Below are positions 53,111 through 60,558 of a stretch of 64,000 nucleotides of DNA, piece after piece. The DNA comes from Terriglobia bacterium (GTDB taxonomy: Bacteria > Acidobacteriota > Terriglobia > Terriglobales > Acidobacteriaceae): assembly GCA_032252755.1 (NCBI GenBank), contig JAVUPY010000062.1, positions 1-64,000 on the forward strand, in the 5' to 3' direction. Every line of letters begins with the position of its first letter. Positions within the stretch are counted from its first letter, which is position 1. The position numbers and the translations under genes are program-made. The notes beneath the pieces are model-generated. The model was given only the letters and a program-made list of their open reading frames with translations. It had not been told where the DNA came from and ran no database searches.

Positions 53111-53577
53111 GTTGTACCTCACTTTCCATGAGGAAGTTAGCGGCCTTTGTAACGATCGCTCACGTCTTCATTCAATATCCTAGAAGTTGTGGAGACACCT
53201 GTCTGGTCACAATGGATCACATTGGAGCGGTACCTTTGCTCTTCGCGGATGTATTCTCGCTTTTGTTATGAATTGGAACCGTGAGGCGGCGCTCGGGACA
53301 GGTGGATCCGAATGACGGGATGGAGAATCCTCGAGGAACTACCCCGCCCCAGCGAAGCCAGGATGGCAACCCGGCTACAGCGAGGGCTTTTGTTCAGATA
53401 TGTCGTCGCGCGAGGCGCGACTTGGCGGGTCTCGGCGACGGTAGACCCCTTACTCACGTGCGAGGCTACTTTCCCGGGTGGGATGGGTGACTAAGGGTCG
53501 ACAATTTCTGGAAAAAATCGGTTCGCCTGAAGCTTTCCATTACTCTCAACCACTCGTTTTCAGCTATCCTGCGATTG
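53111..53577. other. non-coding gap with repeat copy
   Basis: No convincing gene. It carries the promoter region of the DUF3309/VIT1 genes (left side) and the second copy of the 75-bp element at 53401-53475. Confidence 0.5.
53401..53475. repeat. 75-bp dispersed repeat, copy 2
   Basis: TGTCGTCGCGCGAGGCGCGACTTG at the left and ACTCACGTGCGAGGCTACTTTC at the right match 35521-35595 at the same spacing. The left end forms a small hairpin (CGCGCGAGGCGCG type). Confidence 0.65.
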
Positions 53578-54822
53578 ATGGCTCCTTTCGCACTTTCCGA
53601 TCTTCTTGGTCAGCCGGTTTACGACAATTCCGGCGGAAAAGTGGGACGTGTGCGCGAAATCGCCATTGTTCCGCAGGACGATCCGAATCATGTTGCGGCC
53701 TTCGTCGTGAAGACCTCCGAAGGCGATCGGCTGCTCTCCAGTCACAGGGTGAAGAGCGTCAACGGCGGAGTTAGGAGCCTCGGCGCGCTCAGCGACCTGA
53801 CACCTTATAACGGTTCGGAAGGCATGTTGTTGCTGGAGCGCGACCTGCTCGATCAGCAGATCATCGACGTTCACGGCCGCAAGGTGGTTCGTGTCAACGA
53901 CGCGGTGCTGCTCGGCGAGGAAGTCAAGGACGGAACGGTCTCGCTGCGCATCGAGTCGGTCGATGTCGGCGCTCGCGGCGCGTTGCGGCGCCTGCTGCGC
54001 GGAGTGGTTCCGCACATTGCTCTGCGCGGACTGCTGGAGAGGATTCCGCCGAAGCCGATTCCGTGGGAGTTCGTGAACCTGATCGAGACCGATCCCGCGC
54101 GTCGCGTGCGCCTGAAGATCTCCTCCGATCGTCTGGCGAAGCTGCATCCAGCGGACATCGCGGACATCATCGAGGAACTCGCGCCAGCCGAACGCGACGC
54201 CGTCTTCCAGACCCTGGACGAGGAAGTCGCAGCGCAGGCACTGGAGGAGATCGACCCGAAGCTGCAGGTCTCGATCGTCAACTCGATGGGAAGCGACAAG
54301 GCCGCGGACATCGTCGAAGAGATGGACCCGGACGCTGCGGCCGACCTGCTCGCCGACCTGACTCCAGAGCAGTCGGAAGAGATACTGGAGGAAATGGAGC
54401 CGGAAGCGGCGTCCGAAGTCGGCGAACTGCTGGAGTTTCCCGAGGACACAGCCGCTGGCCGCATGACCACGGACTACATGTCCTTGGCTCCGACTGCTAC
54501 CGTGCGCGACGCGGTCTCCATGCTGAGGACCTTCGAAGGCGGCCTGGAGAGCATGAGCACCATCTACCTTGTGCGCGACGGTGAATACCTGGTGGGGGCT
54601 GTGCCGCTGGCGAAACTGGTGCTCTCAGATCCGGAAACAAAACTTCATTCGCTCGGGACCGATCCATTGATCTCGTGTCCTCCGGGAGCGGAAGAGAACG
54701 AAGTCGCGGAACTGTTTGACAAGTACAACCTGCTCACGCTTCCGGTGGTGGATGAAGAAGGAAAGCTGACAGGTGTGATCACCGCGGACGATGTGATCAG
54801 CATCCTTCGAGCGAGGCTGTAG
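53578..54822 (+). CDS. PRC-barrel / MgtE N-terminal / CBS-pair protein without transporter domain
   Basis: 414 residues, no membrane helices. The N-terminal PRC-barrel-like segment (LLGQPVYDNSGGKVGRVREIAI, about 1-75) is followed by a second similar unit, then an MgtE N-terminal superhelical domain (LAKLHPADIADIIEELAPAERDAVFQTLDEEVAAQALEEI..MDPDAAADLLADL, about 190-290) and two CBS domains (about 300-414). MgtE normally adds a C-terminal membrane channel; here only the sensor half exists. Such proteins often stand next to Nramp transporters, but none is in view. Start: ATG 53578 rather than TTG 53575. Confidence 0.88.
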   Translation: MAPFALSDLLGQPVYDNSGGKVGRVREIAIVPQDDPNHVAAFVVKTSEGDRLLSSHRVKSVNGGVRSLGALSDLTPYNGSEGMLLLERDLLDQQIIDVHGRKVVRVNDAVLLGEEVKDGTVSLRIESVDVGARGALRRLLRGVVPHIALRGLLERIPPKPIPWEFVNLIETDPARRVRLKISSDRLAKLHPADIADIIEELAPAERDAVFQTLDEEVAAQALEEIDPKLQVSIVNSMGSDKAADIVEEMDPDAAADLLADLTPEQSEEILEEMEPEAASEVGELLEFPEDTAAGRMTTDYMSLAPTATVRDAVSMLRTFEGGLESMSTIYLVRDGEYLVGAVPLAKLVLSDPETKLHSLGTDPLISCPPGAEENEVAELFDKYNLLTLPVVDEEGKLTGVITADDVISILRARL

Positions 54823-55215: not shown

Positions 55216-56048
55216 CAGCTCGCTTTGACCTCTCTGATCTCCTCGATCTTGCGAACGCCTGGCGGTTGGTCGAACCTCTCGGGATGAAGAGCCCATGCGA
55301 TGGCTCGCAGGCCGCCTATCAGGGTTGTTGCGGGAGTATTGAGCAGTTCGTCGGCGACGCAGAAGACGCGACCGTTCTTCCCCGCATTGGTTTCGAGCCA
55401 ACCTCGATCGCGGACGATCTTCTCCAGCGGGACGCGATCTCCGGCGCCGCACCACGCGGCAAGAGTCACGTCAGGATTCATGGCGCGCACTTCTTCCGCG
55501 GCGGTCTGCGCGCCCGGAATTCCGACGAACTCTCCGCCCGCGGCTTCGACCAGCTCAGCGACCCACGTTTGCGAGGCGATTAGAGGTTTTCCCCATTCCT
55601 CGGAGAAGACTCGCAGCCTGGGGAAGAACGCGGTTGCGCGGCGAATGCGGTTAATCTCCCACTGCATCTCGCGCACTACTGCGTCGCCTCGAACGGATGC
55701 TCCCGCGATCCGAGCGATCATGCGGATATCGTCGTAGATATCTGCGAGGGTGTGCGGAGCGAGAGCGAGGAAGCGAACGCCAGCCTTCATAATCTGAAGA
55801 ACGGCTTCTTTCTGGTACGGGACCGAGGCGATTACGATGTCGGGCTTCGCCTCGAGGATCTCGTCGGCGCGAGCAGTCCAGGAGTCCTGGACGATAAGCT
55901 TCCCTCCCGTGACAACCTCGGGACAGACGTCGGCGCAGTACCTGGTGCAGGCGACGAGTTGGTCGAGTTCGCCAATATCAGCCAGCGTGAGAGTCACACT
56001 GGGCTGCAGCGACGCTATGCGGAGCTTTGCCACCTCACCATCGTCCAT
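55215..56048 (-). CDS. cobalamin/iron-siderophore-type ABC binding protein (BtuF-like)
   Basis: Helical-backbone metal/cobalamin-binding protein (COG0614-like): LRIASLQPSVTLTLADIGELDQLVACTRYC, KPDIVIASVPYQKEAVLQIMKAGVRFLAL, TWVAELVEAAGGEFVG and NAGKNGRVFCVADELLNTPATTLIGGLRAIAWALHPERF. About 277 residues from ATG 56048, which leaves no signal peptide; longer readings to 56153 or 56231 exist but would overlap the divergent gene's signal region. Because metH here needs B12, a cobamide role is plausible (inference). No transporter genes adjoin. Confidence 0.78.
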   Translation of the reverse strand: MDDGEVAKLRIASLQPSVTLTLADIGELDQLVACTRYCADVCPEVVTGGKLIVQDSWTARADEILEAKPDIVIASVPYQKEAVLQIMKAGVRFLALAPHTLADIYDDIRMIARIAGASVRGDAVVREMQWEINRIRRATAFFPRLRVFSEEWGKPLIASQTWVAELVEAAGGEFVGIPGAQTAAEEVRAMNPDVTLAAWCGAGDRVPLEKIVRDRGWLETNAGKNGRVFCVADELLNTPATTLIGGLRAIAWALHPERFDQPPGVRKIEEIREVKAS

Positions 56049-56156
56049 GAGCGATGCGGGTTTCGTCAATGCGGAGAGGCACTCGCGCAGGCGTTCGGGT
56101 GTAAGATTGGCTCGTTCAAGGAGCATCTTCCCGGGGGGTGCGATACGAGCCATCGT

Positions 56157-56696
56157 ATTGTCAGAGTTCTCGGATTCGCTTTCATCGCGGTCGTATTCCT
56201 GTTCGCGACCACGACCTTTTCTTACGGCCAAGACTCGTCGCAGACTACCTCTGCGAAAGCAGCCTCAGCGAAGTCGAAGAAAGTCGCGCAATCGGGAAAG
56301 CCTGAGGAGAGCAAAAAAGTGGCACAGCCGGGCGAAGCAGGCAAAGCCGAAGCAAACGGCACTAATAAGTCTCAGCCGGCAAAGAGCGACGAAGCGAAGA
56401 AGGAAGAAGCTCCGCCGCCACCGCCCAGCCCGAAGCTGATCGAGGTTCCGCAGGACAGCGCAACCTACACGCCGCGCCCGAAGGTCGTGGCGATATTCGT
56501 GTTCACGAACGGCAACCGGATTGAGTCCGATGATTACCTGATCACGAAGGACGCGCTTTTCATCAACAAGGATGGGCAGAAGACGCGGTATCCGATCAAC
56601 ACGGTCGACCGCGCCGCGACTAAGGCCGCTAATGAGGGTCGCGGAGTGGATATCGTTTTTCCTAAATCGAGGAGCGAGTTTAATCTCGATTTCTGA
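56157..56696 (+). CDS. exported hypothetical protein with lysine/alanine-rich linker
   Basis: About 179 residues. VRVLGFAFIAVVFLFATTTFSYGQ is a signal peptide; then an Ala/Lys/Ser-rich chain and a small C-terminal domain (RPKVVAIFVFTNGNRIESDDYLITKDALFINKDGQKTRYPINTVDRAAT). No standard start codon fits the frame: ATT 56157 is the only near-start, and an upstream GTG reading (55752) runs across the divergent gene. AAGGAG is at about 56118. An ATT start or a nearby indel is possible. Function unknown. Confidence 0.55.
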   Translation: MVRVLGFAFIAVVFLFATTTFSYGQDSSQTTSAKAASAKSKKVAQSGKPEESKKVAQPGEAGKAEANGTNKSQPAKSDEAKKEEAPPPPPSPKLIEVPQDSATYTPRPKVVAIFVFTNGNRIESDDYLITKDALFINKDGQKTRYPINTVDRAATKAANEGRGVDIVFPKSRSEFNLDF

Positions 56697-57192: not shown

Positions 57193-57396
57193 TTACGGCC
57201 AAACCCTCTTGGCTGAGTCCGAGCGCGGAGCTTCCACGGGCTTCGGGATCGAGGCGGCGCGGACGGGTTCTTCGACGACGCCGAGCGGGTTTTCGTCTTC
57301 GAGGATCTGGGCGGCGCAGCGGAGTTTGTCGATCTGCTCCATGAGCTGCCGGACCTGCTGTTCTTTTTCGCGAATGACTGCGTGAATATCCTTCAT
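57193..57396 (-). CDS. small coiled-coil protein
   Basis: 67 residues from ATG 57396 with GGGGAGAACG upstream. Residues 5-35 (HAVIREKEQQVRQLMEQIDKLRCAAQILEDE) form a probable coiled coil; the rest is Pro-rich. No family recognised. The longer reading to 57738 is composed of poor sequence and is rejected. Plausible small real gene. Confidence 0.55.
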   Translation of the reverse strand: MKDIHAVIREKEQQVRQLMEQIDKLRCAAQILEDENPLGVVEEPVRAASIPKPVEAPRSDSAKRVWP

Positions 57397-57737
57397 CGTT
57401 CTCCCCTGAAACTTACTTGCATAGCCATCGATAGCGCGGCTCAGATCGAGCCACCGAGCCATAGGGCCATCGTGCCATCGGAAATCAAAACGGCCCGGGC
57501 ACCGGATCAGTTCATCCCCTAGGGCTGAACGACCTACGCCGACCCACTGGCCAAGTTTCGCGCCGAATTGGATTTCCGGCCAATTACTAATGGCCAATCG
57601 CAGGGTGCACTTCCGATTACTGATGTTCTTCGGTTTCAGGAGCTTAGCGCTGATAACCGTGACATGATTGGGCACAAGCCTCCTCAAACACCCAGCGGTG
57701 TTTGCAGCGGGCGCGTCACTTTCAAAGGGAGTGCACA
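57397..57737. other. non-coding gap before the GAF-TonB gene
   Basis: About 340 bases. Contains short repeat-like phrases (GGCCAATTACTAATGGCCAATCG, GCCATAGGGCCATCGTGCCATCG) but no gene. It must include the promoter of the divergent GAF-TonB gene; no confident -35/-10 found. Confidence 0.45.
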
Positions 57738-59615
57738 ATGGCTACGACGGCCAGTCACACGGCCATGGATGAATCTCTTCCAGATTTCTCCAGCCAATTT
57801 CTGAGCGATTTGCAGGGGCTGCTCGAAAAGGCGGGACGCTTCACAGGCGCTACCAGCGCAGCGATGGCTTTTGTTGAGGGCGAAGAACTCGTCACCAAGG
57901 TAAGCATGGGAGAATGCGCGCCGGATCCCGGCTCGCGCAGCCCGATCTCCGGTAGTTTCACCGGACTCTGCGTACAGCAGCACGATGTGCAGCGCTGTGA
58001 CGACGCCTCGAAGGACGAGCGCGTCGATTCCGCGGCGTGCCAGGCACTCGGCATTTCGTCGATGGTGATCGTACCGATTTCGGAAAAGCGCAGGGTGCTG
58101 GGAGTCCTGGCAGCGTTCTCGCCGAAGCCGAATGCGTTTTCGCCAACGCACGTTGCCCTGTTGCGGACGATTGCGGACATCGTGATTGAGTTGCGAAAGC
58201 GTTATCCGGCAGATCCGCATCCGGCGGGATTCGGTGCGACGCGGAGCGACGAGCCGATCAAGGCTGCGCCGCAGGTCGATTCGCCATTGGTTCACTCGGC
58301 GCCGGACATAGCCGCGGCCGAAATCGAGCCAACCCTCGTCAAAGCACCTGAAACCAGGGCTGCGGTGACGACCGTGCTGCCGACATTCGCTTCGGCACTG
58401 CCAGAAAAGAAATTGGAGCCGGCGGCGAGCTCTTCAGTTGAGAAGTCGGACGTGGCAATGAACCCGGCCGCCGAACTGCATGCCACGATGGCGGCGATTC
58501 CGGTACCGGAACAGAATAAGCAGGAAAAGGTCGAGCCTTTGAAGGTCGAGGTTCCGAAGCAGGAAGAAATTCGAATCACAGAGGCCAAGCCGGCAGCGGA
58601 GAAGAAACCTGTTCTCGGTCCGGTACTGGTGAAGCCTGAAGCAAAACCGAAGGTGGAGCACAGTGTCGAACTGTGGAAGCGTGAACCGCTGGTCATCAAC
58701 AATGCCGAGGAAGCGGACGAGTACGCCCGGGTGGTTCCGGACGAGCCGAAGAAGGAATCAGAAGTGGTTTCGACGGCAGCCGACATAGGTTTTACTCCAG
58801 TGACGAACGATGCCGAAGCTAATGCGCATCAGCCGATGTTTGGCTACGGATATAGCGCGAAATCAACGAGGACGGGCGGCCGCTCCATTTCGATACTTAA
58901 GGTAATCGTCGCGGTACTTGGCCTCGCGGCTTTTGCCGCAGCAGCCACCTGGTTCTTCAAATATCACTCACCGGTCGAGCAGCCGCATGCTGTACAGGCA
59001 GCGGCGCCAGGGGTTCAGCCCGCCGCGCCAGAAGCGCAGACGCTAGCGCCACGGGTCACGCCGGACGCTGCCGATGCGCAGGCGTCAACGGGCCCGGAGG
59101 TCGCAATGGTCCTGAAGAAAACGGACCTGAAACTGCCGGGCGGAAAGCATGACGCCAAGATTCCCGATTCTGAAATTGTTCCGGACCAGACGATCATTCT
59201 CAACGGTGGTACGGTTCCGAAACGGATTGGTGCAGAGGAAGCAGTAGCACCACCGAAAGTTGCGGCAGATGGAACCCCTGGTATGAGTAACATTCTGAAT
59301 ATGGTGAAGCCGACCACGCAACCTAAAGCCGATTTCCAAGCTTCGACGATTTCGGCACCAGTATTGATCAAGCAGGTGGCGCCGCGATTCCCTGCCTTTG
59401 CCCGGCAGATGCATATCCAGAGCGACCGGGTGATCCTGAATGGGACTGTTGGAAAGGACGGTTCGGTTACCAGCATCAAAGTTATCCGTGGAAACCAGGT
59501 ATTCGTTGGGCCCGCGATAGCGGCAGTAAAAGAATGGAAATACAAACCGGCCATACTGAACGGCCAGCCCACGCCCTCGACGGTTGAAATCGTAGTGAAC
59601 TTCGTGGATCGCTGA
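57738..59615 (+). CDS. GAF-transmembrane-TonB C-terminal fusion protein
   Basis: 625 residues. A GAF domain occupies about 15-160 (LLEKAGRFTGATSAAMAFVEGE..GSFTGLCVQQ..GISSMVIVPISEKRRVLGVLAAFS). A long Pro/Glu/Lys-rich linker follows to about 385, then one membrane helix (KVIVAVLGLAAFAAAATWFF, about 389-408), a second linker, and a C-terminal TonB domain (about 540-625: RFPAFARQMHIQSDRVILNGTVGKDGSVTSIKVIRGNQVFVGPAIAAVKEWKYKPAILNGQP). The GAF would be cytoplasmic and the TonB part periplasmic. ATG 57738 follows AAAGGGA. Terminator at 59638. Possibly signal-gated energy coupling (inference). Confidence 0.85.
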   Translation: MATTASHTAMDESLPDFSSQFLSDLQGLLEKAGRFTGATSAAMAFVEGEELVTKVSMGECAPDPGSRSPISGSFTGLCVQQHDVQRCDDASKDERVDSAACQALGISSMVIVPISEKRRVLGVLAAFSPKPNAFSPTHVALLRTIADIVIELRKRYPADPHPAGFGATRSDEPIKAAPQVDSPLVHSAPDIAAAEIEPTLVKAPETRAAVTTVLPTFASALPEKKLEPAASSSVEKSDVAMNPAAELHATMAAIPVPEQNKQEKVEPLKVEVPKQEEIRITEAKPAAEKKPVLGPVLVKPEAKPKVEHSVELWKREPLVINNAEEADEYARVVPDEPKKESEVVSTAADIGFTPVTNDAEANAHQPMFGYGYSAKSTRTGGRSISILKVIVAVLGLAAFAAAATWFFKYHSPVEQPHAVQAAAPGVQPAAPEAQTLAPRVTPDAADAQASTGPEVAMVLKKTDLKLPGGKHDAKIPDSEIVPDQTIILNGGTVPKRIGAEEAVAPPKVAADGTPGMSNILNMVKPTTQPKADFQASTISAPVLIKQVAPRFPAFARQMHIQSDRVILNGTVGKDGSVTSIKVIRGNQVFVGPAIAAVKEWKYKPAILNGQPTPSTVEIVVNFVDR

Positions 59616-59637
59616 ACCTCTGATGAACGCATGACCG

Positions 59638-59661
59638 CCCCGGCACTCTGCCGGGGTTTTT
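59638..59661 (+). terminator. rho-independent terminator after the GAF-TonB gene
   Basis: CCCCGGC (59638-59644), loop ACTCT, GCCGGGG (59650-59656), then TTTTT. Confidence 0.93.
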
Positions 59662-59770: not shown

Positions 59771-60217
59771 ATGAACGCGACCAGGGTCTCATACACGCTG
59801 GACTCCTCGTTGGAGAGCGTGAACAAGGCGGAAGAGACTGCCACAGAGTTCGCCACCAAGACCGGATTCGATCCGGAGGAGGTGCAGCGGATCTCGATGG
59901 CGGTTCGTGAAGCCACGGTGAATGCCGTCCTGCATGGTAATTCATATGACCCTCGCAAGAAGGTGCATATCGCGTTTGAGGCCGCAGGCGATGCCCTGAC
60001 GGTTACGGTTCGGGACGAGGGCAAGGGACTGGATCAGGAAGAAATTCCCGATCCTCTCGCCCCTGAGAATCTTTTGAAGCAGTCAGGACGTGGCATTTTC
60101 CTTATTCGGGCTTTCATGGATGAAGTCCGCTTCCGTAACATGGAACCCGGCACAGAAGTTACTTTGATCAAGAGGCTGTCCGGTGACTCCCGCGACGGCA
60201 AGGAGGCTTCCCAGTGA
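59771..60217 (+). CDS. RsbW-like serine kinase/anti-sigma factor (HATPase)
   Basis: 148 residues of the GHKL ATPase type found in anti-sigma regulatory kinases. N-box RISMAVREATVNAVLHGN, G1 VRDEGKGLD, and G2 SGRGIFLIRAFMDEV are intact. These phosphorylate STAS antagonists and hold a sigma factor. Its stop overlaps the next gene's GTG start, a partner-switch pair. No sigma factor gene adjoins. Confidence 0.9.
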   Translation: MNATRVSYTLDSSLESVNKAEETATEFATKTGFDPEEVQRISMAVREATVNAVLHGNSYDPRKKVHIAFEAAGDALTVTVRDEGKGLDQEEIPDPLAPENLLKQSGRGIFLIRAFMDEVRFRNMEPGTEVTLIKRLSGDSRDGKEASQ

Positions 60218-60558
60218 CGATGAAAGCAAGCACCCGGCAGGTGGATGGCGTCACCATCATTGATTTGAGTGGGCGCATCACTCTCGGCGAAGGCAGCGTG
60301 GTTCTTCGCGATACCATCCGCAACTCGGTCGGACAGGGGATCAAGAAGATCGTCCTTAACCTAGGTGATGTGACCTATATCGACAGCTCGGGAATCGGCG
60401 AGCTGGTCAGCGCCTTCACCAGCGTTCGCAACCAGGGCGGCGAACTGAAGCTGCTGAACCTGACGAAGAAGGTTCATGACCTGCTCCAGATCACGAAGCT
60501 CTATACGGTCTTCGACGTGAAGGACGACGAGGCGAGCGCCATCAAGGCATTCAAGTAA
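60214..60558 (+). CDS. STAS-domain anti-anti-sigma factor (RsbV/SpoIIAA-like)
   Basis: 114 residues, a single STAS domain: VTIIDLSGRITLGEGSVVLRDTI, VLNLGDVTYIDSSGIGELVSAF with the target Ser58/Ser59. The GTG at 60214 is 7 bases from AAGGAGG and overlaps the RsbW-like stop; ATG 60220 is less well spaced. Phosphorylation by the neighbour would block its release of the sigma factor. Confidence 0.93.
   Translation: MTMKASTRQVDGVTIIDLSGRITLGEGSVVLRDTIRNSVGQGIKKIVLNLGDVTYIDSSGIGELVSAFTSVRNQGGELKLLNLTKKVHDLLQITKLYTVFDVKDDEASAIKAFK

Follow-up and report, generated by a model that had tools for sequence, protein, structure and literature searches.

GAF-helix-TonB_C proteins of the Acidobacteriaceae lack the ExbB-contact signature of TonB helices and may serve as envelope tethers

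Organization of the locus

The window analysed here, the first 64,000 nucleotides of a contig (contig 62, JAVUPY010000062.1) of a Terriglobia bacterium of the family Acidobacteriaceae, carries on its plus strand an open reading frame (57738..59615) that begins with an ATG at 57738, preceded at a short distance by AAAGGGAG, and ends with a stop at 59615. The encoded protein of 625 residues has a GAF domain, a linker, a membrane helix, a second linker and a TonB C-terminal domain (TonB_C) in that order, all coordinates below being on the plus strand unless stated. Pfam places the GAF domain at residues 25-148 (57810..58181), where GAF_2, with a cut-off of 28.6 bits, scores 50.8 (E 2.5e-13) and the GAF model, with a cut-off of 22.4, scores 37.8, and TonB_C (PF03544) at residues 548-622 (59379..59603) with 51.9 bits against a cut-off of 24.6 (E 1.1e-13); the NCBIfam tonB_Cterm model scores 28.7 bits against 27.1. 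Hydropathy has a single maximum (2.42), which gives one helix between the two domains at about residues 384-402 (58887..58943), flanked by low-complexity linkers: linker 1 (58182..58886), presumably cytoplasmic, and linker 2 (58944..59378), presumably periplasmic, in which Pro, Ala, Glu, Ser, Lys, Thr, Gln, Gly and Asp make up 69% and 71% of the residues, respectively. An N-inside orientation is likely because the net charge is +3 directly N-terminal to the helix and 0 directly C-terminal to it. Pfam and hydropathy thus agree with the preliminary description, which had read a GAF domain, long linkers, one internal helix and TonB_C in one chain, and by its GAF_2 score the N-terminal region is a real domain rather than a mis-called linker.

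A profile of the family's GAF domains matches solved GAF structures (3e0y, E 1.1e-9), including those of phosphodiesterases and sensors, and the corresponding TonB_C profile matches solved TonB C-domains (2k9k, E 8.4e-16; 1u07, E 5.1e-12); judged by these matches, the TonB_C domain of the family is an ordinary, intact one, similar to the solved TonB domains. The GAF region of the window protein gave a low-confidence single-sequence AlphaFold prediction (mean pLDDT 44.7). Among the family sequences, its Cys 78 is shared by 92 of 109, Cys 87 by 99 of 109 and Cys 101 by 76 of 108, and putative redox or metal sensing by these residues is possible. A GAF domain of the free methionine sulfoxide reductase kind was considered, since 3mmh and 1vhm were matched in the PDB, but just one Cys aligns by eye.

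Directly 3' of the stop codon, a scan found a terminator-like hairpin followed by a T run (59637..59657), one of 4 such sites in the stretch where 3.1 are expected by chance; because of this site the gene is probably transcribed alone, as its own transcription unit. Directly downstream, at 59771-60558, lie genes for an RsbW-like HATPase_c_2 protein and a STAS protein, a partner-switching pair. A conserved operon with these genes was rejected, as the terminator-like site separates them from the GAF-TonB gene and they are not kept beside its relatives, a HATPase homologue adjoining only relative L044, where it lies upstream and is 33% identical.

On the minus strand, divergent from the GAF-TonB gene, lies a small gene (57193..57396, -) for a protein of 67 residues, coiled-coil by eye and ending in Arg-Val-Trp-Pro, with a ribosome-binding site of its own, AGGGGAG, ahead of its ATG. 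The mechanically called reading frame 57193-57738 places the start too far upstream and was not adopted. The 341 bases between the two divergent start codons (57397..57737), in which no consensus promoter was found, form a probable control region common to both genes.

The membrane helix compared with those of TonB proteins

'Energy transducer TonB' is a frequent annotation of proteins that carry TonB_C, and the preliminary description had offered either a ligand-gated TonB or a TonB fold that does another job. The helix was compared with those of 20 hand-picked control TonB proteins from the same phylum (L160-L179), 19 of which have ExbB and ExbD within the fetched 5-6 kb (L174 does not). A profile of the control N-termini scores 47-124.6 bits on held-out controls and at most 10.7 bits on the helix regions of 57 GAF-TonB proteins (see below), none of which is control-like; among the TonB proteins of the window genome itself, the exbBD-linked L056 reaches 88.3 bits and L057 20.5. 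The profile, which the GAF-TonB proteins do not match, also spans the stretch of the ExbD-binding D-box, and the D-box is covered only in this way. The contact motif SxxxH, to which the preliminary description had pointed, taken here together with its local Q/N form (SxxxH/Q/N), is absent from the window helix and occurs near the helix, outside its core, in 1 of 57 relatives. The N-terminus profile is nonetheless the better test, because the strict motif is also missing in 12 of the 20 controls.

In E. coli, according to PMC10907165, the helices of TonB and TolA carry 'SHLS' and TonB has an ExbD-binding D-box after the helix. The polar helix residue, assigned by eye, is asparagine in 11 controls, histidine in 5, glutamine in 3 and glutamate in 1; it is glutamine in L056 of the window genome and histidine in the E. 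coli motif. By eye, 19 of the 20 control helices also close with a 'PL' motif, mostly of the IPL type.

No exbB or exbD match was found on contig 62; ExbB/ExbD-type matches lie on contigs 70, 2, 10 and 80 of the same genome. The three ExbB-type matches belong to a Ton cluster (contig 70), a Tol-like cluster (contig 2) and MotA (contig 10), so that the motors of the genome are one Ton, one Tol-like and MotAB, and the exbB cluster includes its own tonB. The third match was rejected as a motor for the GAF-TonB protein, being by eye a MotA beside MotB and CheA.

The preliminary reading thus divides: its anatomy stands, a ligand-gated, energised TonB is dropped as first choice on the helix comparison and on the lack of an exb gene nearby, and the alternative of a TonB fold put to another job is now favoured, with the function proposed from sequence. 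The genome has 18 TonB_C matches in all. Four TonB_C proteins of this genome (L053, L061, L062 and L064) are short, with 127-147 residues and a hydrophobic, by eye signal-like N-terminus, and look like one more role for the fold where no TonB helix is present.

Distribution of the family and exchange of modules

The window protein served as query against 298 genomes of the order, and a profile built from 19 of its full-length relatives was run against 297 genomes of the phylum and 398 of the family. The order GAF-helix-TonB_C was assigned to 57 open reading frames in 54 genomes, all of the window's taxonomic family, a lower bound in that the loci were picked among the best-scoring matches (60 regions, 20 more and automatically chosen loci). 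The phylum sample comprised 266 genomes from outside the window's family and 31 from within it, with at most 4 candidates scored per genome; among the matches listed, all those spanning GAF and TonB_C came from within the family and none from the 266. Recurrence in 57 reading frames and 54 genomes rules out a chance or assembly fusion, and extends to its relatives the architecture that the preliminary description had noted once.

The same GAF subfamily was found in 109 distinct reading frames, which carry beyond the GAF domain TonB_C (57), AMIN-Amidase_3 (16, a label that also covers long frames cut before the amidase, several of the 16 ending with the fetched stretch), AMIN (2, one of which, L140, is cut by a contig end) or Sel1 (10); of the remainder, 10 have a helix at the very end, 11 have no helix and 3 are classed as other, including L108, which is truncated by the end of its contig shortly before TonB_C would be expected. 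These labels derive from our own profiles and phmmer, with Pfam applied to examples. A PilZ domain ahead of the GAF domain is labelled in 11 of the TonB_C proteins and was confirmed by Pfam in 4 of the 5 examined; in the fifth, L110, Pfam finds no PilZ.

On a tree of the GAF domains, the TonB label needs 9 changes, and starred branches force at least 3 of them, a pattern suggestive of swapped periplasmic outputs among GAF-helix proteins. On the TonB_C tree, the GAF-TonB domains need 5 label changes and starred branches force only 1, which is compatible with a single origin of these domains as well as with several; both trees were made by a 'quick' method from few alignment columns. A paralogue in the window genome, L078, has the order GAF-helix-AMIN, its AMIN match of 20.0 bits lying just below the Pfam cut-off of 20.5.

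Several of the other architectures deserve description in their own right. The AMIN-Amidase_3 proteins, of which L015:1207-3648 and L133:643-3177 were checked with Pfam and 14 further ones are labelled, join a cell-wall amidase to a cytosolic GAF domain through one helix. PilZ-GAF-helix-Sel1 genes adjoin a gene for a soluble GAF protein in L014, L030 and L144 (checked with Pfam) and in L049 and L052, where the N-terminus of the soluble protein is zinc-ribbon-like by eye. Proteins of the order PilZ-helix-TonB_C, with no GAF domain, are encoded beside the small gene in L194:393-1316, L198:391-1287, L200:2086-2952 and L202:295-1191, and are possibly c-di-GMP-controlled TonB_C proteins.

The small coiled-coil neighbour gene

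Relatives of the small gene adjoin 29 of the 109 GAF-subfamily genes, lying upstream in 27 cases. They stand beside all 11 genes labelled PilZ-GAF-TonB_C, 12 of the 46 other GAF-TonB_C genes, 1 of the 2 AMIN genes, 2 of the 3 'other' genes, 2 of the 10 end-helix genes and 1 of the 11 helix-less GAF genes, and are absent beside 34 of the 57 GAF-TonB_C, all 16 GAF-AMIN-amidase and all 10 GAF-Sel1 genes. None occurs at the 20 control TonB loci or at 17 TonB_C loci of the window genome. All 29 small proteins end in Trp-Pro or Phe-Pro, an ending that is part of the search model, so that relatives with another ending could be missed. The small proteins that were run against Pfam and NCBIfam had no above-threshold match in either.

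The window genome has three small-gene matches, each adjoining a GAF-helix gene of this subfamily, namely the window gene, a GAF-helix-AMIN gene on contig 80 and, on contig 18, a gene whose GAF-helix product has a short tail; these are the only three GAF-helix genes of the subfamily among the 30 fetched of 40 GAF matches in that genome. The profile denoted A4 includes the three rows from this genome; profile A5, which leaves them out, again gives three matches there, contigs 62 and 80 being among those listed. Profile A5 has matches in 70 of 150 genomes searched in the family, where at most 40 candidates per genome were scored. Of its best 30 loci, 15 have a GAF reading frame within about 1.5 kb, 5 a PilZ-helix protein with no GAF domain, of which 4 end in TonB_C, and 10 neither. 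Twenty-two of these 30 loci lie outside the rows used for the profile, and 12 of the 22 have such a neighbour (7 GAF, 5 PilZ), one of the 7 GAF neighbours scoring only 29 bits and one being a near-copy of rows used.

The small gene is therefore not obligatory, as it is absent beside 34 GAF-TonB_C genes and 10 of the best 30 loci have neither a GAF nor a PilZ-helix neighbour. The ten small proteins with no such gene in the fetched stretch (L192, L196, L204-L207, L209, L210, L212 and L216, with L192, L205 and L209 truncated at the ends of their contigs) all belong to a subtype ending in AKRWP, which elsewhere also adjoins GAF and PilZ proteins.

Three features are new here, being absent from the preliminary description: the exchanged modules, the versions with PilZ and the small coiled-coil gene next to some of the GAF genes. 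What is said below of their function is a proposal.

Comparison with known systems

Canonical TonB proteins (L056 and the 20 controls) share with the window protein a homologous TonB_C domain and a proline-rich periplasmic arm; what sets them apart is the lack of a cytosolic domain, a helix at the N-terminus in which a polar residue was seen by eye in all 20 controls, and the ExbB/ExbD genes that accompany 19 of the 20. TonB proteins in general are described as having no cytoplasmic domain (PMC8262864).

The closest anatomical parallel is GltG (PglI) of the Myxococcus xanthus gliding machinery, described as a protein of 640 residues whose FHA domain lies in the cytosol and is followed by a helix and, at the C-terminus, by a PF03544 domain (PMC3169522). 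The plan of a cytosolic signalling domain, a helix and TonB_C is thus already known from that description, both proteins being bitopic, with a cytosolic signalling domain, one helix and a periplasmic TonB C-domain. In the window protein, by contrast, GAF replaces FHA, no FHA domain having been found with Pfam at E values up to 1, no motor gene lies close by, and AglRQS-type motor genes are missing, as the genome's MotA/ExbB matches, three in number, belong to Ton, to the Tol-like system and to the neighbour of MotB. Among the NCBIfam matches listed for the window protein there is none to the AgmX/PglI C-terminus either. By these comparisons the window protein is like GltG in anatomy but is not a member of that group, having neither an FHA domain nor such motor genes.

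A second Myxococcus protein, GltJ (AgmX), has a cytosolic switch region and is not a nutrient-uptake TonB. It shares with the window protein a cytosolic control region, a helix and a TonB-like periplasmic C-domain, while the cytosolic domains differ. Its C-terminus is reported to be TonB-like (PMC8262864) and the protein to be an effector of MglA (PMC12288465). The TonB-like proteins of Anabaena, SjdR among them, are likewise annotated as TonB, though they are described as not being siderophore-uptake TonBs (PMC8262864, PMC8597729); unlike the window protein, SjdR is short and is said to have no TonB-like periplasmic domain, and the account of it in PMC8262864 mentions no GAF domain. A search of the open-access literature at the level of titles and abstracts, which covers few subscription journals, found no description of the GAF-helix-TonB_C architecture.

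Proposed role of the GAF-TonB proteins

Taken together, the sequence data show a genuine, conserved and non-canonical TonB_C protein, which we propose, at about even chances, to be a bitopic, motor-independent tether of the envelope under cytosolic control. The GAF domain, joined or replaced in relatives by PilZ, would sense a signal in the cytosol, perhaps jointly with the small protein encoded alongside; the single helix would transmit the state of the sensor across the inner membrane through changed clustering or position; and TonB_C, at the tip of a long disordered periplasmic arm, would bind a partner in the envelope, either an outer-membrane protein with a TonB box or peptidoglycan. A flow of signal from cytosol to periplasm is suggested by the constant cytosolic sensor, the exchangeable periplasmic part and the amidase of some relatives. 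Since the helix has no sign of motor contact, TonB_C is most likely a binding module, which would act as anchor or regulator rather than as an ExbBD-driven energy transducer. Possible TonB-box partners exist in the genome, given its 22 Plug-domain matches, and contact of the GAF-TonB protein with TonB boxes or with ExbB is possible.

The same Plug-domain proteins could serve an opposite, outside-in scheme, in which TonB_C would read loaded outer-membrane receptors through their exposed TonB boxes, and GAF and the small protein would signal to the cytosol in the style of cell-surface signalling. Beyond these possible targets, such a receptor would have candidates close at hand: the partner-switching kinase and STAS protein encoded downstream and, by eye, an Oar-like receptor gene that neighbours 4 of the 7 loci of genus g11 first examined (L035, L037, L038 and L039 of L034-L040), with a partial match in another g11 genome (L125). 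Outside g11, however, the receptor was matched in one neighbourhood, and more weakly (L142), many of the fetched stretches being only about 5 kb long, and this kind of gene is too common for its presence to be given weight as a meaningful neighbour. The downstream genes, which lie past the terminator-like site, do not recur next to the relatives of the GAF-TonB gene, PilZ and GAF domains usually act as receivers in the cytosol, and the amidase or Sel1 that relatives carry past the helix looks like an output. The outside-in scheme is accordingly regarded as unlikely.

An unusual true TonB, in which GAF would gate an energy transducer driven by ExbBD by way of different contacts in the helix, is less likely still. 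Its TonB_C is intact and like the solved TonB domains, and the helix and long arm are as in TonB; the domain sequence still matches energised TonBs well, so that the protein might couple to ExbBD in trans. The FHA-bearing GltG, moreover, is reported to interact with the ExbB-like AglR in two-hybrid assays (PMC3169522). Against this, the helix signature is missing in 57 of 57 proteins, the exb genes are not nearby and the exbB cluster has a tonB of its own. A scaffold organizing peptidoglycan, with TonB_C as a wall-binding module equivalent to the AMIN of paralogues, fits the GAF-helix-AMIN paralogue L078, the many GAF-helix-AMIN-Amidase_3 relatives and the reported shaping of septal peptidoglycan by the TonB-like SjdR of Anabaena, but is similarly doubtful, because the periplasmic part of SjdR is said not to be TonB-like (PMC8262864), wall binding by TonB_C is putative and the scheme overlaps with the tether, from which it differs only in target.

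Fifty-seven conserved proteins keep TonB_C without the helix signature of motor contact and behind cytosolic sensors; if the preferred tether reading is true, the TonB fold would be a general envelope-binding module under cytosolic, possibly c-di-GMP, control. Extended to the whole family, and put forward only tentatively, the scheme would be an undescribed one of modular envelope control, in which GAF sensors, PilZ sensors or both act through one helix on a motorless TonB_C, AMIN, AMIN-amidase or Sel1, one branch being steered by the small partner, whose Trp/Phe-Pro end the sensor would read. The small gene with its fixed end would then offer a ready test case for sensor read-out.

Further genes in the window

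Some 1.5 kb upstream of the GAF-TonB gene, a Peripla_BP_2 match (E 1.5e-24) lies on the minus strand at 55218-56231; the Peripla_BP_2 family includes siderophore and vitamin B12 binders. Farther upstream, a single plus-strand reading frame of 415 residues (53575-54819) combines PRC-barrel, MgtE_N and CBS domains.
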